Assembly: GCF_038502225.1 (NCBI RefSeq)
Contig: NC_091312.1
Span: 29,739,910 to 29,803,909, forward strand
Length of the DNA stretch: 64,000 nucleotides
Direction of reading: 5' to 3'
DNA from: Cherax quadricarinatus
Lineage: Eukaryota; Arthropoda; Malacostraca; Decapoda; Parastacidae
Shown: piece by piece, positions 1 through 20,365 of the stretch
How positions within the stretch are numbered: the first letter of the stretch is position 1
Layout of the letters: every line of letters begins with the position of its first letter
Position numbers and translations under genes: made by a program
Notes under the pieces: model-generated
Seen by the model: the letters and a program-made list of their open reading frames with translations, nothing else
Databases searched by the model: none
What the model was told of the DNA's origin: nothing

Positions 1-3000
1 GGGGAGTGAGAACTGGGGAGTGAGAACTGCGGGGTGAGAACTGCGGAGTGAGAACTGGGGAGTGAGAACTGGGCAGTGAGAACTGGAGAGTGGGAACTGG
101 TGAGTGAGAACTGGTGAGTTAGAACTAGGGAGTGAGAACTGAGGAGTGAGAACTGGGGATTGAAAACTGGAGAGTGAGAACTGGGGAGTGAGAACTGGAG
201 AGTGAGAACTGGGGAGTGAGAACTGGGGAGTGAGAACTGGGGAGTGAGAACTGGGGAGTGAGAACTGGGGAGTGAGAACTGGTGAGTGAGAACTGGTGAG
301 TGAGAACTGGGGAAGGAGAACTGGGGAGTGAAAACTGGAGAGTGAGAACTAATGAGTGAGAACTGGTGAGTGAGAACTGGTGAGCGAGAACTGGGGAGTG
401 AGAACTGGGGAGTGAGAACTGGATAGTGAGAACTGGGGAGTGAGAACTGGAGAGTGAGAACTGGTGAGTGAGAACTGGGAAGTGAGAACTGGGGAGTGAG
501 AAAAGCGGAGTTAGAACTGGAGAATGAGAACTGGTGAGTGAGAACTGGTGAGTGAGAACTGGGGAGTGAGAACTGGGGAGTGAGAACTGGGGAGTGAGAA
601 CTGGTGAGTGAGAACTGGAGAGTGAGAACTGGGTAGTGAGAACTGGAAAGTGAGAACTGGTGAGTGAGAACTGATGAGTGAGAACTGGGGAGTGAGAACT
701 GGGGAGTGAGAACTGAGGAGTGAAAACTGGAGAGTGAGAACTGGGGAGTGAGAACTGAAGAGTGAGAACTGGGGAGTGAGAACTGGGGAGTGAGAACTGG
801 AGAGTGAGAACTGGAGAGTGAGAACTGGTGATTGAGAACTGGGGAGTGAGAACTGGGGAGTGAGAACTCGGGAGTGAGAACTGGGGAGAGAGAACTGGTG
901 AGTGAGAACTGGTGAGTGAGAACTGGTGAGTGAGAACTGGGGAGTGAGAACTGGGGAGTTAGAACTGGAGAATGAGAACTGGTGAGTGAGAACTGGAGAG
1001 TGAGAATTGGGGAGTGAGAACTGGGGAGTGAGGACTGGGGAGTGAGAACTTAGGAGTGAGTACTGGGGAGTGAGAACTTAGGAGTGAGTACTGGGGAGTG
1101 AGAACTGGTGAGTGAGAACTGGGGAGTGAGAACTGGGGAGTGAGAGCTGGGGAGTGAGAACTGGGGAGTGAGAACTGGGGAGTGAGAACTGGGGAGTGAG
1201 AACTGGGGAGTGAGAACTGGTGAGTGAGAACTAGGGAGTGAGAGCTGGGGAGTGAGAACTGGGGAGTGAGAACTGGGGAGTGAGAACTGGGGAGAGAGAA
1301 CGGGGGAGTGAGAACTGGGCAGTGAGAACTGGGCAGTGAGAACTGGGCAGTGAGAACTGGGGGGTGAGAACTGATGAGTGAGAACTGGGCAGTGAGAACT
1401 GGGCAGTGAGAACTGCGCAGTGAGAACTGGGCAGTCAGAACTGGGCAGTGGGAACTGGGGAGTGAGAACTGGGGAGTGAGAACTGGGTAGTGAGAACTGG
1501 GGAGTGAGAACTGGGGAGTGAGAACTGGGCAGTGAGAACTGGAGAGTGAGAACTGGGCATTGAGAACTGGGAAGTGAGAACTGGGGAGTGAAAACTGGTG
1601 AGTGAGAACTGGGGAGTGAGAACTGCGGAGTGAGAACTGGGGAGTGAGAACTGGTGAGTGAGAACTGGGGAGTGAGAATTGGGGAGTGAGAACTGGGCAG
1701 TGAGAACTGGGCAGTGAGAACTGGGGAGTGAGAACTGGGCATTGAGAACTGGGCAGTGAGAACTGGGGAGTGAAAACTGGTGAGTGAGAACTGGGGAGTG
1801 AGAATTGCGGAGTGAGAACTGGAAGTGAGAACTAGGGAGTGAGAAATGGGGAGTGAGAACTGGGGAGTGAGAACTGAGGAGTGAGAAGTGGACAGTGAGA
1901 ACTGGGGAGTGAGAACTGGGGAGTTAGAACTGGGGAGTGAAAACTGGTGAGTGAGAACTTGGGAGTGAGAACTGCTGAGTGAGAACTGGGAGTGAGAACT
2001 AGGGAGTGAGAACTGGGGAGTGAGAACTGGGGAGTGAGAACTGGGGAGTGAGAACTGGACAGTGAGAACTGGTGAGTGAAAACTGGTGAGTGAGAACTGG
2101 TGAGTGAGAACTGGGGAGTGAGAACTGGGGAGTGAGAACTGGGGAGTGAGAACTGGGGAGTGAGAACTGGGGAGTGAGAACTGGGGAGTGAGAACTGGTG
2201 AGAGAGAACTCGTGAGTGAGAACTAGGGAGTGAGAACTGGCGAGTGAAAACAGGGGAGCGAGAGCTGGGGAGTGAGAGCTGGGGAGTGAGAACTGGGGAG
2301 TACGAACTGGGGAGTGAGAACTGGGGAGTGAGAACTGGGGAGTGATAACTGCTGAGTGAGAACTGGGAAGTGAGAACTATGGAGTGAGAACTGGGGAGTG
2401 AGAACTGTTGATTGAGAACTGGTGAGTGAGAACTGGGGAGTGAGAACTGGTGAGCGAGAACTGGGGAGTGAAAACTTGTGAGTGAGAACTAGAGAGTGAG
2501 AATTGGTGAGTGAGAACAGGGGAGTGAGAACTGGTGAGTGAGAATTGGGGAGTGACAACTGTTAAGTGAGAGCTGGGGAGTGAGAACTGGGGAGTGAGAA
2601 CTGGGGAGTGAGATCTGGGGCGTGAGTACTGGTGAGTGACAACTAAGGAGTGAGAACTGGGGAGTGAGAACTGGGGAGTGAGAAGTGGGGAGTGAGAACT
2701 GGGGATTGAGAACTGGTGAGTGAGAACTGGTGAGAGAGACCTGGTGAGTGAGAACTGGGGAGTGAGAGCTGGTAAGTGAGAACTGGGGAGAGAGAATTGG
2801 TAAGTGAGAGGTGGGAAGTGAGAACTGGGGAGTGAGAACTGAGTAGAGAGAACTGGGGAGTGAGAACTGGTGAGTGAGAACTGAGGAGTGAGAGCTGGTA
2901 AGTGAGAACTGGGGAGAGAGAATTGGTAAGTGAGAGCTGGGAAGTGAGAACTGGGGTGTGAGAACTGAGTAGAGAGAACTGGGGAGTGAGAACTGGTGAG

Positions 3001-5103
3001 TGAGAACTGGTGAGTGAGAACTGGTGATTAAGAACTTGGGGTGAGAACTGTGGAGTAAGAACAGGGGAGTGAGAAATGGGGAGTGAGAACTGGGGAGTGA
3101 GAACTGGTGAGTGAGAACTGGTAAGTGAGAACTGGGGAGTGATAACTGGTGATTAAGAACTTGGGGTGAGAACTGGGGAGTTAGAACAGGGGAGTGAGAA
3201 ATGGGGAGTGAGAACTGGGGAGTGAGAACTGGTGAGTGAGAACTGGTGAGTGAGAACTGGTGAGTGAGAACTGGGGAGTGAAAACAGGGGGTGAGACCTC
3301 TTGAGTGAGAACTTGGGAGTGAAAACTGGTGAGTGAGAACTGGGGGGTGAGAACTAGGGAGTGAGAACTGGATGAGTGAGAATTAGGGAGTGAGAATTGG
3401 TGAGTGAGAACAGGGGAGTGAGAACTGGTGAGTGAGAATTGAGAAGTGAGAACTGTTAAGTGAGAGCTGGGGAGTGAGAACTTGGGTGTGAGAACTTGAG
3501 AGTGAGAACTGGTGAGTGACAACTAAGGAGTGAGAACTGGGGAGTGAGAACTGGGAAGGGAGAACTGGGGAGGGAGAACTGGGGAGGGAGAACTGGGGAG
3601 GGAGAACTGGGGAGTGAGAACTTGGGAAGGAGAACTGGGGAGTGAGAATTGGTAAGTGAGAGCTGGGAAGGGAAAACTGGTTAGGGAGAACTGGGGAGTG
3701 AGAACTTGGGAGGGAGAACTGGTAAGTGAGAATTGGTAAGTGAGAACTGGGAAGGGAGAACTGGGGAGGGAGAACTGGGGAGGGAGAACTGGGGAGTGAG
3801 AACTTGGGAGGGAGAACTGGGGAGTGAGAATAGGTAAGTGAGAGCTGGGAAGTGAGAACTGGGGAGTGGGAACTGGGGAGGGAGAACTGAGGAGTGAGAA
3901 CTGCGGAGTGAGAACTGGGGAATGAGAACTGGGGGTGAAAACTGGGGAGTGAGAACTTGTGAGTGAGAAATGGTGAGTGAGAACTGAGGAGTGAGAGCTG
4001 GTAAGAGCTGCAGAGTGAGAATTGACGAGTGAGAACTGGTGAGTGATAACTGGGGAGTGAGAACTGGGGATTGAGAATTGGTAGGTGAGAACTGGGAAGT
4101 GAGAACTGGGGAGTGAGAACTGGGGAGTGAGAACTGGTTAGTGAGAACTGGGGAGTGAGAAATGGGGAGTGAGAACTGGTGGGTGAGAACAGGGGAGTGA
4201 GAACTGGTGAGAGCTGGGGATGTGAGAACTGGGGAGTGAGAACTGGGGTGTGAGAACTGGTGAGTGAGAACAGAGGAGTGAGAACTGGGGTGTGAGAACT
4301 TGGGACTGAGAATTGGGGTCTGAGAACTGGGGAGTGAGAACTGGGGAGTGAGAACTGGAAAGTGAGAACTGGGGAGTGAGAACTGGGGAGTGAGAACTGG
4401 GGAGTGAGGACTAGGGAGTGAGAACTGGGGAGTGACAACTACGGAGTGAGAACTTGTAAGTGAGAGCTAGGGAGTGAGAAGATGGGAGTGAGAACTGGAA
4501 AGTGAGAGCTGGGGAGTGAGAACTGGGGAGTTAGAACTGGTGAGTGAGAACTGGGGAGTGAGAACTGGGGAGTGAGAACTGGGGAGCGAGAACTGGTGAG
4601 AGCTGGGGAGTGAGAACTGGGGAGTGAGAACTGGGAAGTGAGAACTGGAAAGTGAGAACTGTGGAGTGAGAACTGGTGAGAGCTGGGGAGTGAGAACTGG
4701 GGAGTAAGAACTGGGGAGTGAGAACAGCGGAGTGAGAACTTGTGAGTGTGAACTAGGAAGTCAGAACTGGGAAGTGAGTACTGGGGAGTAAGAAGTGGGG
4801 AGTGAGAACTGGAAAGTGAGAGCAGGGGAGTGAGAACTGGGGAGTGAGAACGGGGGAGAGAAAGATGGGGAGTGAGAACTGGGGAGTGACAACTAGGGAG
4901 TGACAATTGGGGAGTGAGAGCTGGGGAATGAGAACTGGGGAGTGAGAACTGGGAAGTAAGAAGTGGGGACCGAGAACTGGTGAGTGAGAACTGGGGAGTG
5001 AGTACTGGGGAGTGAGAACTGGTGAGTGAGAACTTGGGCGTGAGATCTGGCGAGTGAGAACTGGGGAGTGAGAACTGGTGAGTGAGGACTGGTGAGTGAG
5101 AAC
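1..5103. repeat. 14-bp minisatellite, subfamily A (left block)
   Basis: An uninterrupted tandem array of a 14-bp unit, GGGGAGTGAGAACT, about 360 copies, starting before the window. Units differ by point changes at preferred sites (GGGG to GGTG, GGAG or GGGC). A few have indels (AACTGGTGAGAGCT-type fusions near 4208 and 4593). The plus strand is strongly purine-rich. Local higher-order duplication is visible: the block beginning at 2771 recurs at 2897 (126 bp, nine units) and that at 3025 recurs at 3150. The long open frames on the minus strand are by-products of the repeat, not genes. Confidence 0.97.
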
Positions 5104-5466
5104 TGTGGTAGCGTGGCCGAGCGTATGTAGACAGCCTGTACTGTCTGCACAGACAGCCCATGCTGTCTGCCAGCTTAGTTCATATTTCGCGCCATGCTGG
5201 TGCTGCCACCTATAGGCCTTGCCACTTCAGTATGCCCAGACTTGCCTCACTCTCACTCTCACAGCGGCCTAGCAGGAAGACACAAGGCCTACTCCTCTCT
5301 CTCTCGTGGGTTGGTCCTGCCCGGGCCATGGGCACAACACACAAGCCTGTGTGCCCACCACGACTTAACAATAAAGTAAGAAGCCTCCGAAGACAACATT
5401 TTCAATAAACAAAGATATATCATTGAACTACCCGCTTTCAGCTCTACCAATAAATCTTGTTCAACA
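5104..5466 (+). repeat. 5' LTR of the non-autonomous element
   Basis: It starts TGTGG and, if it runs to the primer site, ends CAACA, giving the usual TG...CA ends and a length of 363 bp. AATAAA lies at 5370-5375. The first 17 bases after the start (5107-5123, GGTAGCGTGGCCGAGCG) match, from memory, the 5' end of metazoan tRNA-Leu(AAG), including its A-box-like GTGGCCGAGCG. Only 5107-5394 is shared with the right copy. 5395-5466 is assigned to the LTR by inference from the primer site. Confidence 0.6.
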
Positions 5467-5467
5467 T

Positions 5468-5482
5468 TGGTAGCAGCGGTGG
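5468..5482 (+). other. Primer-binding site, tRNA-Leu-like
   Basis: TGGTAGCAGCGGTGG lies one base after the putative LTR end. Its complement ends in CCA and matches, with one mismatch, the 3' end expected for tRNA-Leu(AAG) (CCACCGCTGCC-A-CCA). The tRNA identity is from memory and is therefore an inference. Confidence 0.55.
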
Positions 5483-6036
5483 TCGCAGCAGTTGTTTGCC
5501 CGGAGAGAGGAAGGAAGAGGTATGAAGTCATCTTCACTTCATCACCCTACACAAGAAGCATCGGTCTCTCAACGAGTTATCCTGATGTCGTGTCTGCACG
5601 TTTCAGCATCCAGACACAGGTACAAGCAGGATCTAGCCGAAATTAGCCGTATTTCTTCGAGAATTGTAAGTGGCATCCCTGTGACCCCACGCTACAGCGT
5701 CCCACGCTGTTTCTCAAGTCACATGTTCAGCGTCACTTGTATGTTGCTGTTCAGCTCAGCACAGCTGTTTCAGCAAGCCAGAGGTGAGTTTCGTGGTGAT
5801 TTCTGCGTCCAATGTATTTTCCTGTGTTTGTGGGTGGGAGGAGGAGAGACGGCCAGATGCTCCCTCGCCATACACTCACACGCTCCTCGCCACCACACTA
5901 CCATACGTTCACCACTACTCACTCCCTCTGCTGTGTTTTCTGCTGTTTTTTGTGTGATTCATTGCCAGAGCTGTGTATCTGAGTGCCCGAGGCCACTCGA
6001 AGCTACGTGGATCAGCATGCCACGTAGATCACGACG

Positions 6037-6061
6037 CCACGTGGATCACGACGCCACGTGG
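6037..6061. promoter_or_regulatory. Paired E-box palindromes CCACGTGG
   Basis: Two perfect CCACGTGG palindromes (6037-6044 and 6054-6061) lie inside a short tandem of ACGCCACGTGGATC-like units at about 6001-6100, with degenerate relatives (CCACGTAG, CCACGTGA) on both sides. CACGTG is the classic bHLH-binding core. Function here is untested. Confidence 0.4.
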
Positions 6062-6148
6062 GTGTGGGCGATGTCATGTGGATCTACAGGCCACGTGAGT
6101 TACCAGATGTCCAAGGCCTCATGCTGTGGTCTGCTGCCTGCATCTCAT

Positions 6149-6228
6149 TGACGTCACCGACGATGCTGCCCGACTACATGACGTCACGATGTCTGCCTGA
6201 CGTCACCTCGAGATGTCTGCTGACGTCA
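6149..6228. promoter_or_regulatory. Cluster of four CRE palindromes TGACGTCA
   Basis: Perfect TGACGTCA occurs at 6149-6156, 6179-6186, 6198-6205 and 6221-6228. Degenerate TGACATCA/TGATGTCA copies follow up to about 6265. TGACGTCA is the full CREB/ATF site. Four in 80 bp is far above chance and suggests a cis-regulatory block or a decayed short tandem repeat with that core. Confidence 0.5.
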
Positions 6229-7404
6229 CCTCGCGACATCACGCCTGACATCACATGATGTCACATCGAGTGTTTCTAGAAATTATTTCAGTATTGTCGA
6301 GAAGATTGAGAGAAAATATATGTCGTGTGTTAATTAATTCCTCTCAGTCAGTGTTCTGACATTTTAGTATGTCTTAGTCAGTTTTATGCACAGAAAAGCA
6401 TCATTTGAGCCATGTTGTACCGCAAGTACCGCGGGTGTGTTTAAAGTTTCCGTGTGTCCAGTGAGGTCTGAGCCAGACCTGAGTAGCACCACTGTGCTAA
6501 GTCACCCGATGAGACCATTGCGTATGACAGCTGATGTCAAGACAGCCCCGAGTGACCGAGCCCTCTTGTACAGAAAGCTTTTATGCTCGTCGCTCGTGAT
6601 GTTCTGCAGAATCGTACCTGCTACGATTCCCATCGAGATTTGTTTCACTTCACCTCCAGACCGTCAGAGTGCAGTTATATGTAGAGAAAAAAGTCTGGGG
6701 ACGCTTAGACTAACATCTGCTATAACTCCAACTGCCCAGAGAATGACACTCGCCAAGCCGCAGTTAGCCACTGTCGGCAGGCGCTGTGTCAGCCTCGTGT
6801 CACAAGCTTCAGAGAGCAGCCTGCAAAAAGAAGATGTCACTTTGACTGCTAGCTCGCTCACTGCAGTCTGGTGTATGATGTTACGACTCCCAGATGTTTC
6901 GCCCAGTCGTCTCTGCCACGATTCGCTCCACAACTCGCTCCATGCTCGCCAGCAGTGACAGCCCAGCGACAGTACCAGTCGAGAAGTGTCCTCCTGAGTC
7001 GCTTGCCAGAAGTCCTGCCCAGTTGCCGAGTTATGTCGACGCCTCACTCGAGGGCACTAGCATGTCGTGCCCAAGGTTGAGTGAAAACCTGCAGCGACTC
7101 CTACGATGACTGCTTCACCGTTCCAGATGAGACCGTACCCTGTTACGTCACAGCTCAACCGCAGCGAATGTCTCCCGTGTTGCAGTATCTGTCCAGACGC
7201 AGGAAGGCGCGCAGTGATGCCCATCAACACTCACTGCCTTTGACCACGATGTTTAGCACACCCCACATGTTTTTTCTTCCCTGTAGGAAGTTTTTTTTCC
7301 ATGTCCATATGTATATATATGATTTTATTTTGTGTTCTGTGCCCTGTTCCCACGAGAGAGAGACCGAGTTTCTTTTACCACCAGTATTGTCGCGTCGGGA
7401 CGAC

Positions 7405-7694
7405 GCGCGGTAGGTGGCCGAGCATATGTAGACAGCCTGTACTGTCTGCACAGACAGCCCATGCTGTCTTCCAGCTTAGTTCATATTTCGCGCCACTCAG
7501 GTGCTGCCACCTATAGGCGTTTCCACTCCAGCCTGCCTGCCCTTGCCTCACTCTCACTCTCACAGCGGCCTAGCAGGAAGACACAAGGCCTACTCCTAGC
7601 TCTCTCTCGTGGGATGGCCCTCCCGGGCCATGGGCACAACACAAGCCTGTGTACCCACCACGACTTAACAATAAAGTAAGAAGCCTCCGAAGAC
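7405..7694 (+). repeat. 3' LTR copy of the non-autonomous element (3' end lost)
   Basis: Direct copy of 5107-5394. It differs by scattered substitutions, a small deletion in the tRNA-like head (GGTAG-GTGGCCGAGCA) and loss of one CA dinucleotide. AATAAA is at 7670-7675. Similarity stops at CGAAGAC (7694). The next 46 bp (7695-7740) match nothing in the left LTR. Confidence 0.65.
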
Positions 7695-7740
7695 GTCTAT
7701 CATTTACTCCTGGCTACCAGAACGCCAAATAATCCTTTTA

Positions 7741-9430
7741 TAGAACTTGTGAGTGAAAACTGGTGAGTGAGAACTGGTGAGTGAGAACTGGGGAGTGAGA
7801 ACTGGTGAGTGAGAACTGGGGAGTGAGAACTGGTGAGTGAGAATCGGGGAGTGAGAACTGGTGAGTGAGAATTGGAGAGTGAGAACTGGTAAGTGAAAGC
7901 TGGGGAGTGAGAACTGGGGAGTGAGGACTGGGGAACGAGAACTGGTGAGTGAGAACTGGTGAGTGAGAACTAAGGGGTGAGAACTGGGGAGTGAGATCTG
8001 GGGAGTGAGAACTGGGGAGTGAGATCTGGGGAGTAAGAACTGGGGAGGGAGAACTGGGGAGTGAGAACTGGGGAGTGAGAATTGGTAAGTGAGAGCTGGG
8101 AAATGAGAACTGGGGAGCGAGACATGTGGAGTGAGAACTAGGGAGTGAGAACTGCTGAGTGAGAACTGGGGAGTGAGAACTGGTGAGTGAGAACTGGGGA
8201 GTGAGAACTGGTGAGTGAGAGCTGGGGAGTGAGCGCTGATGAGAGCTGGAGAGTGAGAACTGGAGAGTGAGAACTGGGGAGGGAGAACTGGTGAGTGAGA
8301 ACTGGGGAGTGAGAACTAGGGAGTGAGAACTGCTGAGTGAGAACTGGGGAGTGAGAACTGGTGAATGAGAACTGGGGAGTGAGAACTGTTGAGTAAGAAC
8401 TGGTGAGTGAGAACTGGGGAGTAAGAACTGTTGAGTGATAACTGGGGAGTGAGCGCTGGTGAGAGCTGGGGAGTGAGAACTGGAGAGTGAGAACTGGGGA
8501 GGGAGAACTGGTGAGTGAGAACTGGGGAGTGAGAAGTGGGGAGTGAGAAGTGGGGATTGAGAAGTGGGGAGTGAGAATTGGTAAGTGAGAGCTGGGAAGT
8601 GAGAACTAACGAGTGAGAACTGGGGAGTGAGAACTGGTGAGTGTGAACTAGGGAGTCAGAACTGGGAAGTGAGAACTGGGGAGTGAGAACTGAGGAGTGA
8701 GAACTTGGGAGTGAGAACTGGTAAGTGAGAGCTGGGAAGTGAGAACTGGGGAGTGAGAACTGGGGAGCGAGCACTGGTGATTGAGAACTTGGGAGTGAGA
8801 ACTGGTAAGTGATAGCAGGGGAGTGAGAACTGGGGAGTCAGAACTGGGGAGTCAGAACTGGGAAGTGAGAACTGGGGAGTGAGAACTGAGGAGTGAGAAC
8901 TTGGGAGTGAGAACTGGTGAGAGCTGGGAAGTGAGAACTGGGGAGTGAGAACTGGGGAGCGAGCACTGGTGATTGAGAACTTGGGAGTGAGAACTGGTAA
9001 GTGATAGCAGGGGAGTGAGAACTGGGGAGTAAGAAGTGTTGAGTGAGAACTGGTAAGTGAGAGCTGGGGAGTGAGTACTTGGGAGTGAGAACGGGGGAAA
9101 GAGAGATGGGGAGTGAGAACTGGGGAGTGAGAACTGGGGTGTGACAACTGGCGAATGAGAGCTGGTGAATGAGAACTGGGGAGTGAGAACTGGAAAGTAA
9201 GAAGTGGGGAGTGAGAGCTGGAAAGTGAGAGCTGGGGAGTGAGATCTGGAGAGTGAGAGCTGGGGAGCGAGAGCTGGGGAGTGAGAGCTGTGGAGTGAGA
9301 GCTGGGGAGTGAGAGCTAGGAAGTGAGAGCTGGGGAGTGAGAAATGGAGAGTGAGAGATGGAGAATTAGAGGTGTGGAGTGAGAGCTGGTGAGTGAGAAC
9401 TGGGTAGTGAGACCTGGGGAGTGACACCTG
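7741..9430. repeat. 14-bp minisatellite, subfamily A to B transition
   Basis: The same 14-bp unit resumes after the insertion. Units are mainly AGAACT up to about 9130. AGAACT and AGAGCT forms then mix, and AGAGCT dominates after about 9430. A larger duplication is visible: the word starting GAGCGAGCACTGG at 8765 recurs with its context at 8957 (192 bp). Confidence 0.95.
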
Positions 9431-12400
9431 AGGAGCGAAAACTAGGGAGTGAGAACTGGGGAGGAAGAGCTCGAGAGTGAAAGCTAAAGAGAGAGAGCTG
9501 GGGAGTGAGAGCTGGGAAGGGAGAGCTGGAGAGTGAGAGCAGGAGAGTTAGAGCTGGGGAGTGAGAGCTGGGGAGTGAGAACTGGGGAGTGAGAGATGGA
9601 GAGTTAGAGCTCTGGAGTGAAAGCTGGGGAGTGAGAGCTGGGGAGTTAGAGCTGTGGAGAGAGACCTGGGGAGTGAGAGCTGGAGAGTGAGAGCTGAAGA
9701 GTGAGAGCAGGAGAGTTAGAGCTGGGGAGTGAGAGGAGGGGAGTGAAATCTGGGGAGTGAGAGCTGGGGAGTGAGAGCTAGGGATTGAGAGCAGGAGAGT
9801 TAGAGCTGGGGAGTGAGAGCAGGGGAGTGAGATCTGGGGAATGAGAGCTGGGGAGTGAGAGGTGGGGAGTGAGAGCTGTGGGGTGAGAGCTGGAGAGTGA
9901 GACCTGGTTAGTGAGAGCTGGAGAGTGAGACATGGGGACTGAGAGCTGGAGAGTGAGAGCTACAGAGTGAGAGCTTTAGAGTGATGGCTCTAGAGTGAGA
10001 GCTGGTAGTAAGAGCTGGGGAGTGAGAGCCGGAGAATAAGAGCTGGGGATTGAGCGCAGCAGAGTTAGAGCTGGGGATTGAGAGCAGGGGAGTGAGATCT
10101 GGGGAGTGAGAGCTGGGGAGTGAGAGGAGGAGAATCAGAGCTGGGGAGTGAGAGCTGGAGAGTGAGAGCTGGGAAGTGAGAGCTGCAGAGTGAGGGCTCT
10201 AGAGTGAGAGCTGGGAGTGAGATCAGGGAGTGAGAGCTGGGGAGTGAGAGCCGGAAAATGAGAGCTGGGGATTGAGAGCTGGGGAATGAGAGCTGAGGAG
10301 TGGGAGCTGTGGGGTATGAGCTAGAGAATGAGAGCTGGGGAGTGAGAGCTGGGGAGTTAGAGCTGTGTAGTGAGAGCTGGGGAGTGAGAACTGGGAAGTG
10401 AGAGCTTGGGAGTGAGAGCTGGAAAGTGAGAACTAGGAAGTTAGAACTGATGAGTGAGAGCTGGAGAGTGAGAACTGGGAAGTGAGTGCTATGGAGTGAG
10501 AGCTAGGGAGTGAGAGCTGAGGAGTGAGAGCCGGAGAGTGAGAGCTGGAGAGAGAGAGCTGGGGAGTGAGGGCTGGGGAGTGAGAGCTGGGGAGTTGAAG
10601 CTGTGGAGTGAGAGCTGGAGAGTGAAAGCTGAGGAGAAAGCTGAGGAGTTAGATCTGGGGAGTGAGAGGAGGGGAGTGAAAGCTAGGGAGTTAAAGCTTT
10701 GGAGTGAGAGCTGGACATTGAGAGCTGGAGAGTGAGAACTGGTGAGTGAGAGCTGGTGAGTGAGAGGTATGGAGTGACAACTTGGGAGTGAGAGCTGGAG
10801 AATGAGAACTGGGGAGTGAGAACTGTGGAGTAAGAAGTGGGGAGGGAGAGCTGGGGAGTGAGAGCTGGAATGTGAGGGCTGGGGAGTGAGAGCTGGAGAG
10901 TTAGAACTGCGAAGTGAGAGCTGTAGAGCGAGAGCTGGAGATTGAGAGCTTTAGAGCGAGAGCTGGGGAATAAGAGCTTGGGAGAGAGAGCTGCGGAGTG
11001 AGAGCTGGATAGTAAGAGCTGTAGAGTAAGGGCTGGAGAGTGAGAGTTAAAGAGTGAGAGCTGGGAAGTGAGAGCTGGGAGGCGAGAGCTGGAGAGTGAG
11101 AGCTGGAGAGTTAGAACTGTGGAGTGAGAGTTGGGGGGTGCAAACTGGGGAGTGACAGCTGGGGAGTGAAAACTAGAGAGTGAGAACTTGGGAGTAAGAG
11201 CTGGAGAGTGAGAACCTGAGAGTGAGAGCTGATGAGTGAGAGCTGGGGAGTGAGAGCTGGGAAGTGAGAGCTGGAGAGTGAGAGCTGGGGAGTGAGAGCT
11301 GGAGAGTTAGAGCTGTGGAGTGAGAGCTGGGGAGTGAGTGCTGAGGAGTGAGAGCTGGATTGTGAAAGCTGGGGAGTGAGAGCTGGAGAGTGAGAGCTTG
11401 GGACTGAGAGCTGGAGAGTGAGAGCTACAGAATGAGAGCTGCAGAGTGAGTACTGGGGAGTGAGAGCCAGAGAATGAGAGCTGGAGAGTGAGAGCTGGGG
11501 AGTGAGAGCTGGGGAGTGAGAGCTGCGGAGTCGGAGTTGTGTAGTGAGAGGTGGAGAGTGAGAGCCTGGGAATGAGAGCTTGGAAGTGAGAGCTGGAGAG
11601 TGAGAGCTGGGGAGTGAGACCTGGGGAGTGAGACCTGGGGAGTGAGAGCTGGGGAGTGAGAATTAAGGAGTGAGAACTGGGGAGTGAGAGCTGGAGAATG
11701 AGAGCTGGGGACTGAGAGCTGGAGAGTGAAAACTGCAGAGTGAGGGCTGGGGAGTGAGAGCCGGAGAATGAGAGCTGGAGAATGAGAGCTAGGGAGGAAG
11801 AGCTGGGGAGTGAGAGCTGGGGAGTCAGAGCTGTGGAGAGAGAGCTGGAGATTGAGATCCGGGGAGTGAGAGCTGGGAAGTGAGAGCTGGAGAGTGAGAG
11901 CTGGGGAGTTAGAGCTGGGAAGTGAGACCTGGGGAGTGAGACCTGGGGAGTGAGAGCTGGGGAGTGAGAACTAAGGAGTGAGAACTGGGGAGTTAGAGCT
12001 GGAGAGTGAGAGCTGGGGAGTGAAAGGTAGGACGTTAGAGCTGTCGAGTGAGAGCTGGGGAGTGAGAGCTGGGGAGTTAGAGCTGTGGAGTTCAGAGCTG
12101 GTGAATGAGAACTGTGGAGAGAGAGTTGGGGAGTGAGAGCTGGAGAGAGAGAGCTGGGGATTGAGCTGGAGAGTGAGAGCTGGAGACTGAGAGCTGGAGA
12201 GTGTGAGCTACAGAGTGAGAGCTGCAGAGTGAGGGCTCTAGAGTGAGAGCTGGGAATGAGTGTTAGGGAGTGAGAGCTGGGGACTGAGAGCCGGAGAGTG
12301 AGAGCTGGGGAGTGAGATCTAGGGAGTGAGAGCAGGAGAGTGAAAGCTAGGGTGTGAGAGCTTTTGAGTGAGAGCTGGAGAGTGAGAACTGAGGAGTGAA

Positions 12401-15400
12401 AACTGGGGAGTAAGAGCTGGAGAGTGAGAGGTAGGGATTTTGAGCTGTCGAGTGAGAGCTGATGAGTAAGAGCTCCCGAGTTAGATCTGGGGAGTGAGAG
12501 CTGGAGAGTGAGAGCTGGGGATTGAAAGCTGGAAAGTGAGAGCTGAGGAGTGAGAGCTGTGGAGTGTGAGCTGTGGAATGAGAGCTGAGTAAGAGCTGGG
12601 GAGTGAGATCTGGGGAGTGAGAGCAGGGGAATGAAAGCTAGAGAGTGAGAGTTTTGGATTTAGGGCTTGAGAATGAGAGCTGGAGAGTGAGAGCTGGAGA
12701 GTAAGAGCTGGAGAGTGAGAGGTGGGAAGGGAAAGCTGGAGATTGAGAGCTGGAAAGAGCTGGGGAGTGATATCTGGTTAGTGAGAGGTGGGAAGTGAGA
12801 GCTGGGAAGCAGGAGCTGGAGAGAGCTGGGGATTGAGATCTTGAGATTGAGAGCTAGGGAATGTGAGCTGGGGACTGAAAGTTGGGGAGTGAGAGCTGGA
12901 GAGCGAAAGCTGGATAGTGAGAGCTGGGAAGTGAAAGCTGAGGAATGAGAGATAGGGATTGGGAGCTGGGGAGTGGGGACTGGGAAGTTAGAACTGGGGA
13001 ACGGGGGCTGAATGAAAGCTGGAGAATGGGGACTGCGAAGTGGGGGCTGCAGAGTGATTGCTGGGGAATGGGGGCTGAGGAGTGACAGCTGGGGATTGGA
13101 GCTTGGGAGTGGGAGCTGGGGAGTGGAGCTTGGGAGTGTGGACTTGGGAGTGGGCGCTGGAGAGTGAGAATTTTTGAGGGGGCTGGGGGCTGGGGAGTGA
13201 GATGTTGAGAGTGAGGGTGGGGAGTGAGAGCTGGAATGTGGGGGCCGTGGAGTGGGCGGTGGGGAGTAATGGCTGGGGAGTGAAAACTGGGTGGGGCCGG
13301 GGAGGGAGAGCTGGAGAGTGAGAGCTGGGGAGTGAGAGCTGGGGAGCGAGAGCTGGGGAGTGGAAGCTGTGGAGTGAGATCTGGAGAGTGAGAGCTGAGG
13401 AGTGAGAGCTGAGGAGTGAGATCTGCGGAGTGAGAGGAAGGGAATGAAAGCTAGGGAGTTAGAGCTCTGGAGTGAGAGCTGGATATTGAGAGCTGGAGAG
13501 TGAGAACTGGTGAGTGAGAGCTGGTGAGCGAGAGCTGGGGAATGACAACTGGGGAGTGAGAACTGGGGAGTAGGAAAAGGGAGGGAGAGCTGGGGAGTGA
13601 GAGCTGGGGAGTGAGAGCTGGAATGTGAGAGCTGGGGAGTGAGAGCTGGAGAGTTAGAGCTGCGAAGTGAGAGCTGGAGAGCGAGAGCTGGAGAGTGAGA
13701 GCTGGAGAGTTAGAGCTGTGGAGTGAGAGTTGGGGAATGAGAACTGGGGAGTGACGGCTGGGGAGTGAAAACTGGAGAGTGAGAACTGGGGAGTAAGAGC
13801 TAGAGAGTGAGAACTTGAGAGTGAGAGCTGAAGAGTGAGAGCTGGGGAGTGAGAGCTGGGAAATGAGAGCTGGAGAGTGAGAGCTGTGGAGTGAGAGCTG
13901 GGGAATGAGAGCTGTGGAGTCAGAACTGTTGAGTGAGAGCTGTGGGGTGAGTGCTGAAGAGTGAGAGCTGGATTGTGAAAGCTGGGGAGTGAGAGCTGGA
14001 GAGTGAGAGCTTGGGACTGAGAGCTGGAGAGTGAGAGCTACAGAGTGAGAGCTGCAGAGTGAGTGCTTTGGAGTGAGAGCCGGAGAACGAGAGCTGGAGA
14101 GTGAGAGCTGGGGAGTGAGAGCTGCGGAGTTGGAACTGTGTAGTGAGAACTGAAGAGTGAGAGCCTGGGAATGAGAGCTGGGAAGTGAGAGCTGGAGAGT
14201 TAGAGCTGTGGAGTGAGAGCTGGGGAGTGAGACCTGGGGAGTGAGACCTGGGGAGTGAGAGCTGGAGAGTGAGAGCTGGGGTCTGAGAGCTGGAGAGTGA
14301 TAGCTACAGAGTGAGAGCTGCAGAGTGAGGGCTGGGGAGTGAGAGCCGGAGAATGAGAGCTGGAGAGTGAGAGCTAGGGAGGAAGAGCTGGGGAGTGAGA
14401 GCTGGGGAGTCGGAGCTGTGGAGTGAGAGCTGGAGAGTGAGAGCCGGGGAGTGAGAACTGGGAAGTGAGAGCTGGAGAGAGTGAGCTGTGGAGTGAGAGC
14501 TGGGGAGTGAGAGCTGGGGAGTGAGACCTGGGGCGTGAGAGCTGGGGAGTGAGAACTAAGGAGTGAGAACTGTCGAGTGAGAGCTGGAGAGTGAGAGCTG
14601 GGAAGTGAAAGCTGGGGAATGAAAGCTGGAGATTGAGAGCTGGAGACTGAGAGCTGGAGAGTGTGAGCTACAGAGAGAGAGCTGCAGAGTGAGGGCTCTA
14701 GAGTGAGAGCTGGGAATGAGTGTTAGGGAGTGAGTGCTGGGAACTGAGAGCCGGAGAGTGAGAACTGGAAAGTGAGAGCTGGGAAGTGAGAGCTGGGGAG
14801 TGAGAGCTGGAGAGTGAGAGCTGAGTAAGAGTTGGGGAACGAAATCTGGGGAGTGAGAGCAGGAGAGTAAAAGCTAGTTTGTGAGAGTTTTTGAGTGAGA
14901 GCTTGAGAGTGAGAGCTGGAGAGTGAGAAGTGGGGAGTGAAAACTGGGGAGTAAGAGCTGGAGAGTGAGAGGTAGGGATTGAGAGCTGATGAGTAAGAGC
15001 TGCGGAGTTAGATCTGGGGAGTGAGAGCTGGAGAGTGAGAGCTGGGGATTGAGAGCTGGAAAGTGAGAGCAGAGGAGTGAGAGCTGGGGAGTGTGAGCTG
15101 TGGAATGAGAGCTGGAGAGTGAGAGCTGAGTAATAGCTGGGGAGTGAGAGCATTGGAGTGAAAGCTAGGGAGTGAGAATTTTGGAGTGAGGGCTTGAGAG
15201 TGAGAGCTGGAGAGTAAGAGCTGGAGAGTGAGAGTTGGGAAGGGAGAGCTGGAGATTGAGAGCTGGGAATTGAGAGCTGGGGAGTGATATCTGGTTAGTG
15301 AGAGGTGGGAAGTGAGAGCTGGGAAGCAGAAGCTGGAAAGAGCTGGGGATTGAGACTTGGAGATTGAGAGCTAGGGAATGTGAGCTGTGGACTGAAAGTT

Positions 15401-18144
15401 GGGGGTTGAGAGCTGGAGAGCGAAAGCTGGATAGTGAGAACTGGGAAGTGAAAGCTGAGGAATGACAGATAGGGAGTGGGAGCTGTGGAGTGGGGACCTG
15501 GAAGTTAGAGCTGGGGAGCAGGGGCTGAATGAGAGCTGGAGAATGGGGACTGCGAAGTGGGGGCTGCGGAGTGATTGCTGGGGAATGGGGGCTGAGGAGT
15601 GATAGCTGGGGAGTGCAGCTTGGGAGTGGGAGCTGGGGAGTGGAGCTTGGGAGTGTGGGTTGGGAGTGGGCGCTGGGAAGTGAGAATTTTTGAGGGGGCT
15701 AGAGGCTGGGGGCTGGGGAGTGAGATGTTGAGAGTAAGGGTGGGGAGTGAGAGCTGGGGGGGTCGTGAGGGAGAGCTGGAGAGTGAGAGCTGGGGAGTGA
15801 GAGCTGGGGAGCGAGAGCTGGGGAGTGGAAGCTGTGGAGTGAGAACTGGAGAGTTAGAGCTGAGGAGTAAGTGCTGAGGAGTGAGATCTGCGGAGTGAGA
15901 GGAAGGGATTGAAAGCTAGGAGTTAGAGCTGGAGAGTGAGAACTGGTGAGTGAGAACTGGGGAGTGAGAGCTGGTGAGTGAGAGCTGGGGAATGAGAACT
16001 GGGGAGTGAGAACTTGGGAGTAGGAAGTGGGGAGGGAGAGCTGGGGAGTGAGAGCTATGAAGTGAGAGCTGGAATGTGAGAGCTGGGGAGTGAGAGCTGG
16101 AGAGTTAGAGCTGCGAAGTGAGAGCTGGAGAGTGAGAGCCGGAGAGCGAGAGCTGTGGAATAAGAGGTGGGGAGTGAGAGCTGTAGAGTGAGAGCTGTAT
16201 AGCAGGAGCTGGAGAGTAAGAGCTGGAGAGCGAGAGCTGAAGATTGAGAGCTGGGAAGTGAGAGCTGAGAGAGGAGAGCTGGTGAGTGAGAGCTGGAGAG
16301 TTAGAGCTGTGGAGTGAGAGTTGAGAGAGCATTGGTGAGTGACAGCTGGGGAGTGAAAACTAGGCAGTGAGAACTGGGGAGTAAGAGCTGGAGAGTGAGA
16401 GCTTGAGAGTGAGAGCTGAAAAGTGAGAGCTGGGGAGTGAGAGCTGGGAAGTGAGAGCTGGAGAGTGAGAGCTGGGGAGTGAGAGCTGGAGAGTTAGAGC
16501 TGTGGAGTGAGAGCTGGGGAGTGAGAGCTGTGGAGTCAGAACTGGTGAGTGAGAGCTGTGGGGTGAGAGCTGGGGAGTGAGAGCTGGATTGCGAAAGCTG
16601 GGGAGTGAGAGCTGGAGGGTGAGAGCTACAGAGTGAGAGCTGCAAAGTGAGGGCTGGGGAGTGAGAGCCGGTGAATGAGAGCTGAAGAGTGAGAGCTGGG
16701 GAGTGAGAGCAGGGGAGTTAGACCTGCGTAGTGAGAGCTTGGTAGTGAGAGCTGGGGAGTGACACCTGGGGAGCGAGAGCTGGGGAGTGAGAACTAAGGA
16801 GCGAGAACTGGGGAGTGAGAGCTGTGGAGTGAGAGCTGGGGAGTGAGAGCTAGGAAGTTAAAGCTGTCGAGTGAGTGCTGGGGAGTGAGAGCTGAGGAGT
16901 TAGAGCTGTGGAGTTCAGAGCAGGTGAATGAGAACTGTGGAGAGAGAGCTGGGGAGTGAGAGCTGGAGAGTGAGAGCTGGGGAGTGAGAGCTGGAGAGTG
17001 AGTGCTGGAGACTGAGAGCTGGAGAGTGTGAGCAACAGAGTGAGAGCTGCAGAGTGAGGGCTCTAGAGTGAGAGCTGGGAGTGAGTGTTTGGGAGTGAGA
17101 GCTGGGGACTGAGAGCCGGAGAGTGAGAGCTGGAGCGTGAGAGCTGGGGAGTGAGAGCTGGGGAGTGGGAGCCGTGGAGTGAGAGCTTTAGATTGAGATT
17201 TGAGTAAGAGCTGGGGAGTGAGATCTGGGGAGTGAGAGCAGGGGAGTGAAAGCTATGGAGTGAGAGCTTTGGAGTGAGAGCTGGAGAGTGAGAGCTGTAG
17301 AGTGAGAACTGGGAAGTGAAAACTGGGAAGAAAGAGCTGGAGAGTGAGAGGTAGGGATTGAGAGCTGGCGAGTGAGAGCTGGAGAGTGAGAGCTGAGGAG
17401 TAAGAGCTGGGGAGTTAGATCTGGGGAGTGAGAGCTGGAGAGTGAGAGTTGGGGATTGAGAGCCGGAAAGTGAGAGCTGGGGAATGAGAGCTGGGGAGTG
17501 TGAGCTGTGGAGTGAGAGCTGGGGAGTGAGATCTACTGAGTGAGAGCAGGGGAGTGAAAGCTAGGGGAGTGAGGGCTTGAGAGTGAGAGCTGGAGAGTGA
17601 GAGCTGGGGAGTGAGAGCTGAGGAGTGAGAGCTGGAAAGTGAGAGCTGGAGAGTGTGGCTGGAGAGTAATAGCTGGAGTGTGAGAGCTGGGAAGTGAGAG
17701 CTGGAGATTGAGAACTGGAGAGAGCTGGGAAGTAAAAGCTGGGGAGTGATATCTGGTTAGTGAGAGCTGGGAAGTGAGAGCTGGGAAGCAGAAGCTGGAA
17801 AGAGCTAGGGATTGAGATCTGGAGATTGAGAGCTAGGGAATGTGAGCTATGGACTGAAAGCTGGATAGTGAGAGCTGGGAAGTGAAAGCTGAGGAGTGAG
17901 AGATAGGGAGTGGGTGCTGAGGAGTGGGGACTGGGGAGTTAGAGCTGGGGAGCCGGGGCTGAATGAAAGCTGGATGGGGACTGCGAAGTGGGGGCTGGGG
18001 AGTGATTGCTGGGGAATGGGGGCTGAAGAGTGATAGCTGGGGAGTGGAGCTTGGGAGCGGGAGCTGGGGAGTGGAGCTTGGGAGTGTGGGCTTGGGAGTT
18101 GGCGCTGGGGAGTGAGAAGTTTTGAGGGGGCTGGGGGCTGGGGG
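9431..18144. repeat. 14-bp minisatellite, subfamily B
   Basis: Tandem units of GGGGAGTGAGAGCT and close variants (GGAGAGTGAGAGCT is common). The units are more diverged than in subfamily A, with many one- or two-base indels. Distinct GTGGGGGCTG-rich blocks recur (about 12990-13290, 15500-15760, 17930-18144) as landmarks of a longer higher-order unit. There is no coding potential apart from repeat-driven open frames. Confidence 0.95.
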
Positions 18145-18280
18145 GACACTGCAGCATCATGGGATCTTGTTACAAAGAATTCTTCAACACTTGTTCAACC
18201 TTTGGACGAAGACCTACTTCGACTAGTGGATGGTACCACTATGACCCCGCCTCCATCTGCTTCACGTCACCTCACTACAG

Positions 18281-18288
18281 TATATAAG
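18281..18288 (+). promoter_or_regulatory. TATA box of the hammerhead unit
   Basis: TATATAAG preceded by a GC-richer stretch that includes a CRE half-site (CACGTCAC at 18263-18270). Transcription from here would start near 18310 and place the hammerhead about 90 nt into the RNA. Inferred from sequence only. Confidence 0.45.
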
Positions 18289-18398
18289 CCACGTCTACGG
18301 CCCTATGCTGTACATTCTACAAGATTGATGGACTGAACACATCGACTCCAGGCTGAGGGACTGATTACCTCATTCTCCTCCTCTCCTTACGCCTTCCT

Positions 18399-18451
18399 CT
18401 TTGTATTGGACTGATGAAGCCACTGTGTGGCGAAACGTTTCCTGAATAAAG
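18399..18451 (+). ncRNA. Type I hammerhead ribozyme with minimal palindromic helix III
   Basis: All conserved core elements are present in order. Helix I 5' strand is 18399-18410. The core CTGATGA is 18411-18417. One extra A (18418) follows. Helix II is GCCAC/GTGGC (18419-18423 with 18427-18431) with a TGT loop. GAAA is 18432-18435. The two-base palindromic helix III is C-G/A-T (18435-18438), position 17 is T18439, and helix I 3' strand is 18440-18451. Helix I forms 10 of 12 pairs (two wobbles, two mismatches). Predicted cleavage is after 18439. Helix III cannot close in cis, which matches the dimeric action described for Penelope-type hammerheads. The extra base before helix II has a precedent in a viroid hammerhead. 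AATAAA overlaps helix I. Activity is untested. Confidence 0.75.
18445..18450 (+). terminator. AATAAA poly(A) signal within hammerhead helix I
   Basis: The hexamer is part of the helix I 3' strand. Folding of the ribozyme would therefore mask the signal. Inference only. Confidence 0.35.
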
Positions 18452-18507
18452 ATTTCCATATGCTGCATAAGTGTCTCAATCTTCAACTTGTCGGTTTTTC
18501 AAACCGG

Positions 18508-20365
18508 GAAGTGAGATGTTGGGATTGAAGGTGGGGAGTGAGAGCTGGAATATGGGGACCGTGGAGTGGGCACTGGGGAGTGATGGTTGGGGAGTGAAAG
18601 CTGGGGGGGGTCGGTGAGTGAGAGCTGGAGAGTGAGAGCTGGGGAGTGAGAGCTGGGGAGCGAGAGCTGGGGACTGGAAGCTGTGGAGTGAGAGCTGGAG
18701 AGTGACAGCTGGGGAGTGAGAGCTGGGGAGTGAGAGCTGCAGAGTGAGAGCTGAGGAGTAAGAGCTGGGGAGTGAGAGCTGGAGAGTGAAAGCTAGGGAG
18801 TGAAAGCTAGGGAGTGAGAGCTTTGGAGTGAGAGCTGGAGAGAGAGAGCTGAGGATTGAGAGCTGGAGAGTGAGAGTTGGGGAGTGAGAGCTGGGGAGTT
18901 GGAGCTGTGGAGTAAGAACTGCAGAGTGAGATCTGGGGAGTGAGAGCAGGGGAGTGAAACCTAGAGAGTGAGAGGTTTGTAGTGAGAGCTGGAGAGTGAG
19001 AACTGGGGATTGAGAGCTGGAGAGTGAAAGCTGGGAAGTGAGAGCTTGGGAGTGATATCTGGTTAGTGAGAGGTGGGATGTGAGAGCTGGGAAGCAGAAG
19101 CTGAAAAGAGCTGTGGATTGAGATCTGAGGAGTGAGAGGTAGGGAATGTGAGCTGGGGACTGAGAGCTGGGGACTGGGGAGTTAGAGCTGGGGAGCGGGG
19201 CTGAATGAGAGCTGGAGAATGGGGACTGCGAAGTGGGGGCTGGGGAGTGATTGCTTGGGAATGGGGGCTGAGGAGTGATAGCTGGGGAGTGGAGCATGGG
19301 AGTGGGAGCTGGGGAGTGGAGCTTGGGAGTTTGGGCTTAAGATTGGGCGCTGGGGAGTGAGAAGTTTTGAGGGGGCTGGGGGCTGGGGGCTGGGGGCTGA
19401 GGAGTGAGATGTTGGGAGTGAGGGTGGGGAGTGAGAGCCGGAATGTGGGGGCCGTGGAGTAGGCGCGGGGGAGTGATGGGTGGGGAGTGAAAGCTGGGGG
19501 GGCGGGGAGTGAGAGCTGGAGAGTGACAGCTGGGGCGTGAGAGCTGGGGAGTGAGAGCTGGGGAGTGAGAGCTGGGGAGTGGGAGCTGTGGAGTGAGAGC
19601 TGGAGAGTGAGAGCTGAGGAGTAAGAGCTGGGGAGTGAGAGCAGGGGAGTGAAAGCTAGGGAGTGAGAGCTTTGGAGTGAGAGCTGGCGTGTGAGAGCTG
19701 GAGAGTGAGACCTGGGGAGTGAGAACTGGGGAGTGAGAGCTGGAGAGTGAGAGCTGGGAATTGAGAGCTGGAGAGTGAGAGTTGGGGAGTGTGAGCTGAG
19801 GAGTGGGAGCTGTGAAGTAAGAGCTGGAGAGTGAGATCTGGGGAGTGAGAGCAGGGGAGTGAAAGCTAGAGAGTGAGAGATTTGTAGTGAGAGCTGAAGA
19901 GTGAGAACTGGCGATTGAGAGCTGGAGAGTGAAAGCTGGGAAGTGAGAGCTTGGGAGTGATATCTGGTTAGTGAGAGGTGGGATGTGAGAGCTGGGAAGC
20001 AGAAACTGAGAAGAGCTGTGGATTGAGATCTGCGGAGTGAGAGGTAGGGAATGTGAGCTGGGGACTGAGAGCTGGGGAGTGAGAGCTGGAGAGTAAAAGC
20101 TGATGAGTGAGAGATAGGGAGTGGGAGCTGGGGACTGAGCAGTTAGAGTTGGGGAGTGGGGCTGAATGAGAGCTGGAGAATGGGGACTGTGAAGTGGGGG
20201 CTGGGGAGTGATTGCTGGGGAATGGGGGCTGAGGAGTGATAGCTGGGGAGTGGAGCTTGGAAGTGGGGGCTGGGGAGTGGGCGCTGGGGAGTGATGGTTG
20301 GGGAGTGAGAGCTGGAGAGGGGCCGTGGAGTGAGAGCTGGGGAATGAGGGCTACAGGGAAGAGAT
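18508..20365. repeat. 14-bp minisatellite, subfamily B (right block)
   Basis: The array continues directly after the hammerhead unit with AAGTGAGATGTTGGG, the expected next part of the interrupted higher-order block. GTGGGGGCTG-rich landmark blocks occur again at about 19190-19500 and 20140-20330. The array decays after 20340 into a short junction before the 13-bp repeat. Confidence 0.94.

Follow-up and report, generated by a model that had tools for sequence, protein, structure and literature searches.

The window, by which we mean the whole stretch of 64,000 nucleotides of Cherax quadricarinatus DNA under analysis, begins with a degenerate 14-bp minisatellite (GGGGAGTGAGAACT/AGCT) that extends over positions 1–20352 and is interrupted, between its stretches 1–17952 and 18506–20352, by an insertion of 362 bp at 18144–18505 (plus strand, as are all features of the window given below). 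Many more minisatellites fill the window, for example a 22-bp repeat with 98% matches at 50597–53307. Comparison with the genome identifies the insertion as positions 1–362 of a 378-nt unit, where unit positions are window coordinates minus 18143; the array period of 378 equals the 362 bp of the window plus 16 bp (363–378) that are missing from its copy. A first-pass annotation of this DNA had described a 363-bp satellite insertion lacking any ORF. The length is corrected by this comparison, and the lack of an ORF is borne out: the longest ATG frame fully within the insertion spans 42 amino acids (18159–18287; frames were listed from 30 amino acids upward). The window copy has no reverse transcriptase (RT) or endonuclease gene of its own, and is hence called non-autonomous. 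The ATG at 18159–18161 matches the place of the first ATG in the frame of a resident Penelope-like element (PLE), the stretch common to both being CTGTCGGACACYGCARCATMATGG, inside which the window copy begins. By motif reading, a TATATAA at 18281–18287 is a possible promoter box, and an AATAAA is present at 18445–18450, so that both of the flanking signals noted in the first pass were found.

Between these two signals begins a hammerhead ribozyme motif. Positions 18399–18451 read CTTTGTATTGGA / CTGATGA / A / GCCAC TGT GTGGC / GAA ACGT T / TCCTGAATAAAG, in letter-for-letter agreement with the CTGATGA, the GCCAC/GTGGC helix II, the GAAA and the 12-position helix I with 10 pairs that had been proposed. 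The 5′ strand of helix I (18399–18410; motif reading, folding, covariation) pairs with its 3′ strand (18440–18451, which includes the AATAAA; motif, folding) at 10 of 12 positions, with A-A and U-U as the mismatches and an internal loop within the helix. Helix II (18419–18431; folding, covariation) is paired at 5 of 5 positions and carries the 3-nt loop TGT. The core is made up of CTGATGA at 18411–18417 (C3 at 18411, G8 at 18416), as seen from motif, folding, covariation and conservation, and of GAA at 18432–18434 (motif, conservation), and one additional A at 18418 marks the boundary between the core and helix II. Established hammerhead numbering predicts cleavage at 18439/18440 (unit positions 296|297), the same site as in the first pass. 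Of the marks of the hammerhead class, the CUGANGA...GAAA core, helices I and II, and an H at the cut are all present, and a helix III in cis is absent. The only possible helix III is the ACGT palindrome at 18435–18438 (motif, folding), which has no loop and would form, with just 4 bp, between units, in line with the earlier remark that the motif cannot fold in cis. According to three reports (PMC7761336, PMC6155905, PMC6466107), PLE hammerhead variants are said to be without helix III and to act as dimers.

We scanned both strands of the window with a descriptor demanding the core, an optional extra base, a stem II no shorter than 4 bp, GAAA, a self-complementary tetramer, a non-G at the cut, and at least 3 inner helix-I pairs. 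The motif is the single site found, and 1000 dinucleotide-preserving shuffles of the window gave 0 matches. An Rfam search with the window and with the insertion alone returned no hammerhead, either at the gathering threshold or at E up to 10, and the top low-scoring rows for the window were microRNA models on AT repeats. The lack of a covariance hit had been named in advance as a point that would speak against the motif; it probably reflects the fact that the models expect a closed helix III. Nor is the hammerhead the minimum-energy fold of the monomer (−11.9 vs. −13.6 kcal/mol), and the double hammerhead of two monomers (−22.3 vs. −33.1 kcal/mol) is less stable by 10.8 kcal/mol than the best fold predicted for the dimer. 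Because folding energy does not favor the hammerhead, it is left out of the support for the fold.

Hammerhead versions were collected by regular expression from 72 loci (L009–L080, some overlapping), resulting in 81 distinct versions when position 3 was restricted to C/T and position 8 to A/G, and 83 when both positions were left free. In both expressions UGA, GAAACGT, and the AA that follows position 8 are fixed, which builds in the invariance at these places, whereas the helix letters are free. From the 81 versions, 30 rows were picked to span the families, and the structure scored comprised 4 pairs of helix I, 6 pairs of helix II, and the 3-8 pair. For these 30 chosen rows, the covariation score is 0.423, compared to 0.191 ± 0.017 after shuffling (0/500) and 0.04–0.14 for slid structures; 87.7% of 308 cells are paired (74.2% shuffled, 35–53% slid), and 45 cells are doubly changed as opposed to 14.2 in shuffles (0/500). 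Two other measures fall within the shuffle range, namely the number of pairs with double changes (7, a value reached by 55 of 500 shuffles) and the number of further pair types (13, reached by 425 of 500). Pair 9-47 is unpaired in 18 of the 30 rows and pair 26-30 in 10, and RNAalifold recovers helices I and II unaided. Positions 3 and 8 likewise behave as a pair: with their letters free, the 83 distinct versions contain 61 C-G, 19 U-A, and one each of C-C, A-G, and U-G. This set gives the fairer count, because the 30 rows (16 C-G, 14 U-A) stem from an expression that allowed only C/T and A/G, under which three of the four combinations pair. Since the families share ancestry, the swap may have been one event. 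Covariation from C3-G8 to U3-A8 occurs in nature and is active in vitro, as described by Perreault et al. (PMC3088659).

Conservation was measured as divergence from the young unit in 66 of 72 units from L041–L070, mostly of an older subfamily, the 6 units below 75% identity having been dropped and some units being counted twice owing to the overlap of L066 and L067. In this sample, variation is 1.1% in the core, 1.5% at the extra A, and 0.95% in GAAACGTT, rising to 3.4% in helix II and its loop, 7.5% and 12.3% in the helix I strands, and 15.6% and 9.9% in the upstream and downstream flanks, respectively. The extra A had been thought uncommon; here it is the usual state, occurring in 279 of 281 motif instances (some from overlapping loci) when this letter is left free. 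A further point on which the motif could have failed, namely that other copies destroy the helices, went in its favor, given the covariation in the 30 versions and the conservation in the 66 units. We conclude from these sequence comparisons that the hammerhead is a real fold and that it is under selection. It is of the PLE type: its helix III is a palindrome without a loop and can form only with a partner unit.

When the insertion was searched against its own 3.95-Gb genome, 40 of the 240 first-look candidates were scored, and at least 138 matches had an E of 0.001 or less. A 34-base hammerhead pattern in which position 3 may be C or T and position 8 may be A or G matches the genome 44,807 times, compared to 0 for the reversed control, and the first 100 matches listed comprise 99 C3-G8 and 1 C3-A8. 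There are 5478 first-look candidates for the older subfamily and 2267 for a second family (40 scored for each), the latter with spacings of 429 and, in one pair of matches, 401. Among viral contigs, the hammerhead pattern matched 0 stretches and the PLE protein gave 4 pattern matches, none of which was confirmed; phage records gave no match.

The way in which the units are inserted was read from 32 loci (L009–L040), using only segments of at least 97% identity and omitting older segments of lower identity. Here, 25 insertions are head-to-head, with a minus arm preceding the plus arm, and 9 other segments are single or nested pieces. The arms are 0.07–6.77 units long, with a mean of 2.30 and 40 of 50 exceeding one unit, and these lengths are lower bounds, as three arms leave the fetched stretch. 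Arms typically start near unit position 373 and near 342, the interval between the two being the PLE “tail”. Indeed, 18 of the 22 insertions with both ends in view pair one end at 366–378 with the other at 336–348. The other four are L027, where both ends were assigned to the 366–378 class by script although the outermost fragment starts at 342, one insertion with both ends in the 336–348 class, and two with one end elsewhere. By our own arithmetic, the chance of at least 18 unlike pairs among 20 classifiable insertions is ~2e-4 under free choice. Flanks were compared as 23-base stretches (20 bases of flank and 3 of the element), and 8 nt or more are shared between an insertion’s own left and right sides in 18 of 22 cases, compared to 4 of 462 mismatched pairs. 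The family thereby displays what marks a PLE derivative, namely a 30–40 nt tail at one end, TSDs, and head-to-head copies; at the level of sequence, the ends, tail, flank duplications, and head-to-head form of the 378-nt unit match published PLE features.

The window copy, which is 99.7% identical to the unit at L025, is atypical in having a single arm of 96% of a lap that ends at unit positions 1 and 362. It contains unit positions 338–346 (18481–18489), where, judging from array ends, one arm starts in most insertions, and lacks the second arm-start region at 366–378. No clear target duplication was found for it, and the tail and head-to-head geometry are not seen in this copy alone; a later rearrangement within the minisatellite is a possible cause. 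A single arm is also present at L032:770–1144, where 375 nt run from position 373 back to 377, very nearly one exact lap, with no second arm.

The inner ends of the arms are compatible with a uniform distribution (Kuiper p 0.57), and 0 of 50 fall within 294–300, where only 0.93 would be expected, which argues against cleaved linear monomers, copied up to their ends, as the template. At the join, the arms overlap by 2–12 nt in 20 of 25 insertions; the 5′ points at which they meet are scattered, and in most cases a few bases are shared there. The predicted cleavage site is crossed by 151 array units, which contain no indel and 4 substitutions in positions 290–303. On a wider scale, the first 100 hammerheads listed on contig C1 have neighbors within 1 kb in the orientations minus-plus (24), plus-plus (8), minus-minus (5), and plus-minus (0), and 8 of the 13 same-strand spacings among them are exactly 378. 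Two young insertions speak for one source each: unit-wide variants are present in both arms at L040 (5/5) and at L039 (4/4, with the L039 variant also seen once in L037), and at L038 a variant is found in both units of the single arm. Mixed variants occur at L010 (2/4), L012 (2/4), L015 (2/6), L016 (2/4), L036 (3/4), and L035 (4/13 and, for another, 4/12). With these six mixed loci, partial variants are commoner than all-unit variants, which counts against one source. In old loci, opposite arms within 1.6 kb of each other have a median distance of 0.044 and a mean of 0.092 (32 pairs, which include unrelated neighbors and overlapping loci), compared to 0.103 and 0.129 between loci (2491 pairs), which again points to one source per insertion.

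A PLE RT frame adjoining one insertion led us to an abundant PLE with 32,952 first-look candidates, of which 138 were scored, many of them with an open frame of 801 amino acids. In one PLE stretch that we read (L072), RVT_1 (8.1e-10) and GIY-YIG (5.8e-5) are both above the Pfam cut-offs, and the tandem period is 2678. The sequence in common with an RT and GIY-YIG element that is expected of a non-autonomous PLE is found for unit positions 220–378 and 1–19, i.e., 178 of 378 nt, which match the pLTR of this PLE in the region that precedes its frame and reaches the first ATG. The common part has a score of 54.5, compared to a maximum of 20.1 in 500 base shuffles (blastn E 7e-11), and covers the hammerhead, the tail, the first ATG, and both start-site regions. 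Unit positions 20–219, on the other hand, are not significantly similar to the L072 stretch, with a score of 13.1 that is reached by 41 of 500 shuffles, and we therefore rejected the idea that the unit represents the complete pLTR of this PLE with the gene removed. Plain deletion of the ORF would also predict a rotation starting at 20, which scores 42.8, whereas the best rotation, starting at 222, scores 56.8. Given these two results, the unit cannot be just this PLE stripped of its gene: the rest of it comes from a diverged or other source, and a PLE that is nearer to the parent may exist. L050 and L071, which combine a PLE RT fragment with a neighboring copy of the family, were considered as the parent element and dropped, as the unit there looks like an adjacent insertion. 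The L071 fragment (L071:4283–5122) is ~81–82% identical to the abundant PLE and lies near a head-to-head 378-nt insertion.

The abundant PLE has a hammerhead of its own in the U3-A8 form, the exact 33-base version of which has 13,410 matches in the genome and 0 when reversed. The geometry of its RT places is the same as that of the unit, with neighbors within 8 kb among the 138 scored oriented minus-plus in 20 cases, plus-plus in 5, minus-minus in 2, and plus-minus in 0; the first 100 PLE hammerheads listed on C1 give 29 minus-plus and 2 plus-minus pairs. The first-pass annotation had linked the motif to Penelope, had required a dimer, and had proposed a genome search for tandem or Penelope copies. 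The link is substantiated by the 178 nt held in common with the pLTR of an RT and GIY-YIG element in the same genome, the tandem units could supply the dimer, and the search has yielded both tandem 378-nt arrays and the resident PLE. As a whole, that interpretation survives as to the Penelope-type hammerhead and the Penelope connection, but not as to the satellite, the rarity of the extra A, or the length.

In our view, the window copy is probably a non-autonomous PLE with a selected hammerhead that was moved in trans through the following cycle. Tandem or circular RNA of the 378-nt unit would be made, in which hammerhead pairs would act between units. PLE protein, acting in trans, would make staggered cuts in the two target strands, whose 3′ ends would each prime reverse transcription internally, one at unit position ~373 and the other at ~342. 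The ends, the tail, and the flank duplications are observed here, and the enzyme and the priming are modeled on the PLE literature. Each arm would then be extended past the cleavage site for a single lap or more, with a circle or tandem RNA as its template; the laps are observed, and the kind of template is our interpretation. Finally, the two arms would meet to produce the head-to-head arrays that are observed. The argument for a PLE origin is carried by the insertion signature together with the common hammerhead-tail part. As for the template, a circle seems somewhat likelier than tandem RNA: it would account for arms of several laps with no need of a longer parent, for inner ends that show no preferred place, and for units that pass seamlessly through the cleavage site.

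The main alternative keeps the element and dispenses with cutting. Here, the hammerhead would be maintained because its folded form serves the PLE protein or the priming step, with uncleaved linear tandem transcripts of existing arrays as templates. A study of an Anolis PLE hammerhead (PMC11167929) reports that it cut only with protein, that core mutants were still inserted, and that there were no RNA ends at the cut site, all of which suggests that cleavage may be dispensable; the lack of inner ends near the cut site in our data suits this explanation too, if measured against an expectation below one. However, conservation extends to the letters of the catalytic core, and the 3-8 pair exists as both C-G and U-A, of which U-A is compatible with cleavage (PMC3088659). 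The conserved catalytic letters and the paired 3-8 state count for a need of cleavage. Furthermore, a linear template cannot exceed its source array, so arrays should shrink with each round, and if linear transcripts were copied as far as their start, inner ends should favor one place, yet no such preference is evident. We hold this alternative to be unlikely, although a serious contender. Tandem units could also arise if the reverse transcriptase, on reaching the 5′ end of a cleaved monomer, jumped to the 3′ end of another, because perfect jumps between monomers ending at 296|297 should likewise yield seamless 378-nt units. Jumps by related reverse transcriptases often add bases, however, and both the indel-free passage of all the crossing units through the site, with its few substitutions, and the inner ends, none of which lies near it, speak against such jumps, which makes them improbable.

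Two more distant explanations abandon the PLE cycle altogether. Ordinary satellite DNA spread by unequal crossing-over, with a motif that resembles a hammerhead by chance, would suit the position of the window copy within a 14-bp minisatellite. A satellite would form long head-to-tail arrays without insertion boundaries, whereas this family has short arms, defined outer ends, and flank duplications; with its dispersed copies, PLE tail, and head-to-head geometry, it is a dispersed retroelement. Together with the absence of the motif from the shuffles and its covariation, these observations already contradict the satellite, which we consider to have almost no chance of being correct. A viroid-like circular replicon consisting only of RNA and accidentally copied into the genome would be in keeping with the unit size and the absence of an ORF, as animal retrozymes form circles of ~170–400 nt according to PMC7229834. 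Nevertheless, half of the unit is PLE pLTR sequence, the insertions obey PLE rules, and nothing points to RNA-to-RNA copying. On these grounds this explanation was rejected, and we regard it as exceedingly improbable.

Minimal dimer-acting PLE hammerheads were reportedly described by Cervera and de la Pena in 2014 and by Lunse, Weinberg, and Breaker in 2017. As portrayed in later summaries (PMC7761336, PMC6155905, PMC6466107), they resemble the present motif in their type I order, loop-less or missing helix III, pLTR location, and action as dimers; the difference is that here they belong to an RT-less unit forming multi-unit arrays. The animal non-LTR retrozymes (PMC7229834) similarly have no ORF, tandem units of 150–450 bp with a hammerhead in each, and a circle model, and by the yardstick of an ORF-less tandem unit of ~150–450 bp with a hammerhead our 378-bp unit and its arrays qualify as well. 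Their hammerheads are canonical type I, however, and PLEs are proposed as their helper, whereas this unit is half PLE pLTR and its insertions bear the PLE signature. Penelope of Adineta vaga, as described in PMC3846280, has head-to-head inverted pLTRs, a 31-bp tail at one pLTR, and TSDs of 8–10 bp, as here, and its pLTRs are sufficient to move other DNA in trans. In that system, the pLTRs flank an ORF and self-priming is favored, whereas in ours the arms are arrays of as many as 6.8 RT-less units, and we envisage a single priming event on each target strand. The Anolis element Poseidon PAc (PMC11167929) is similar in that both target strands are cut and extended, in that the tail is the interval between two internal RT starts, and in having its hammerhead at the pLTR-ORF junction; its starts are equal between strands in vitro, while here 18 of 22 insertions have one of each. 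Bdelloid rotifer terminons (PMC6431247) share the PLE-type hammerheads and tandem arrays but are telomere-attached, endonuclease-deficient, and up to 40 kb in size.

More tentatively, and with somewhat less than even confidence, we propose that RNA circles made by the hammerhead are read several times around by the PLE reverse transcriptase, simultaneously from the two sides of one target break, under a near-obligatory one-tail rule with one strand using each of two starts ~31 nt apart, and that in this way gene-less pLTR circles have become a mass-amplified class of retrozymes. If this is true, the PLE machinery is the helper of hammerhead retrozymes in animals. A review (PMC7761336) calls the in vivo role of minimal PLE hammerheads a mystery and treats PLEs as only likely helpers of animal retrozymes. 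In the titles and abstracts of the part of the open literature covered, we found no report of gene-less PLE-hammerhead multimers or of a one-tail rule. The genome offers tens of thousands of hammerhead copies, with many insertions that show start sites, lap counts, junctions, and template identity. As open-frame PLEs exist beside gene-less units in this one genome, the circle question and the one-tail rule become predictions that can be counted and tested at the bench.

Some individual loci deserve mention in their own right. At L020:557–1173 and L013:1006–1305, new copies lie within older copies of the 378-nt element, and the L020 insertion has the common flank ACTGATGAAGCC and sits inside an older hammerhead. 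L035:1–9901 holds two insertions of the 378-nt family together with a minus-strand frame of 988 amino acids that looks like a LINE-type reverse transcriptase. On contig C1 (G000, e.g., 5520–5585), 7 of the 29 minus-plus pairs among the first 100 PLE hammerheads listed abut exactly, with an offset of 33 bp; in each of these, the arms join at the same palindrome, AAGCTT, which borders the hammerhead core on its 5′ side and where the reverse transcriptase perhaps tends to stop or to prime itself.
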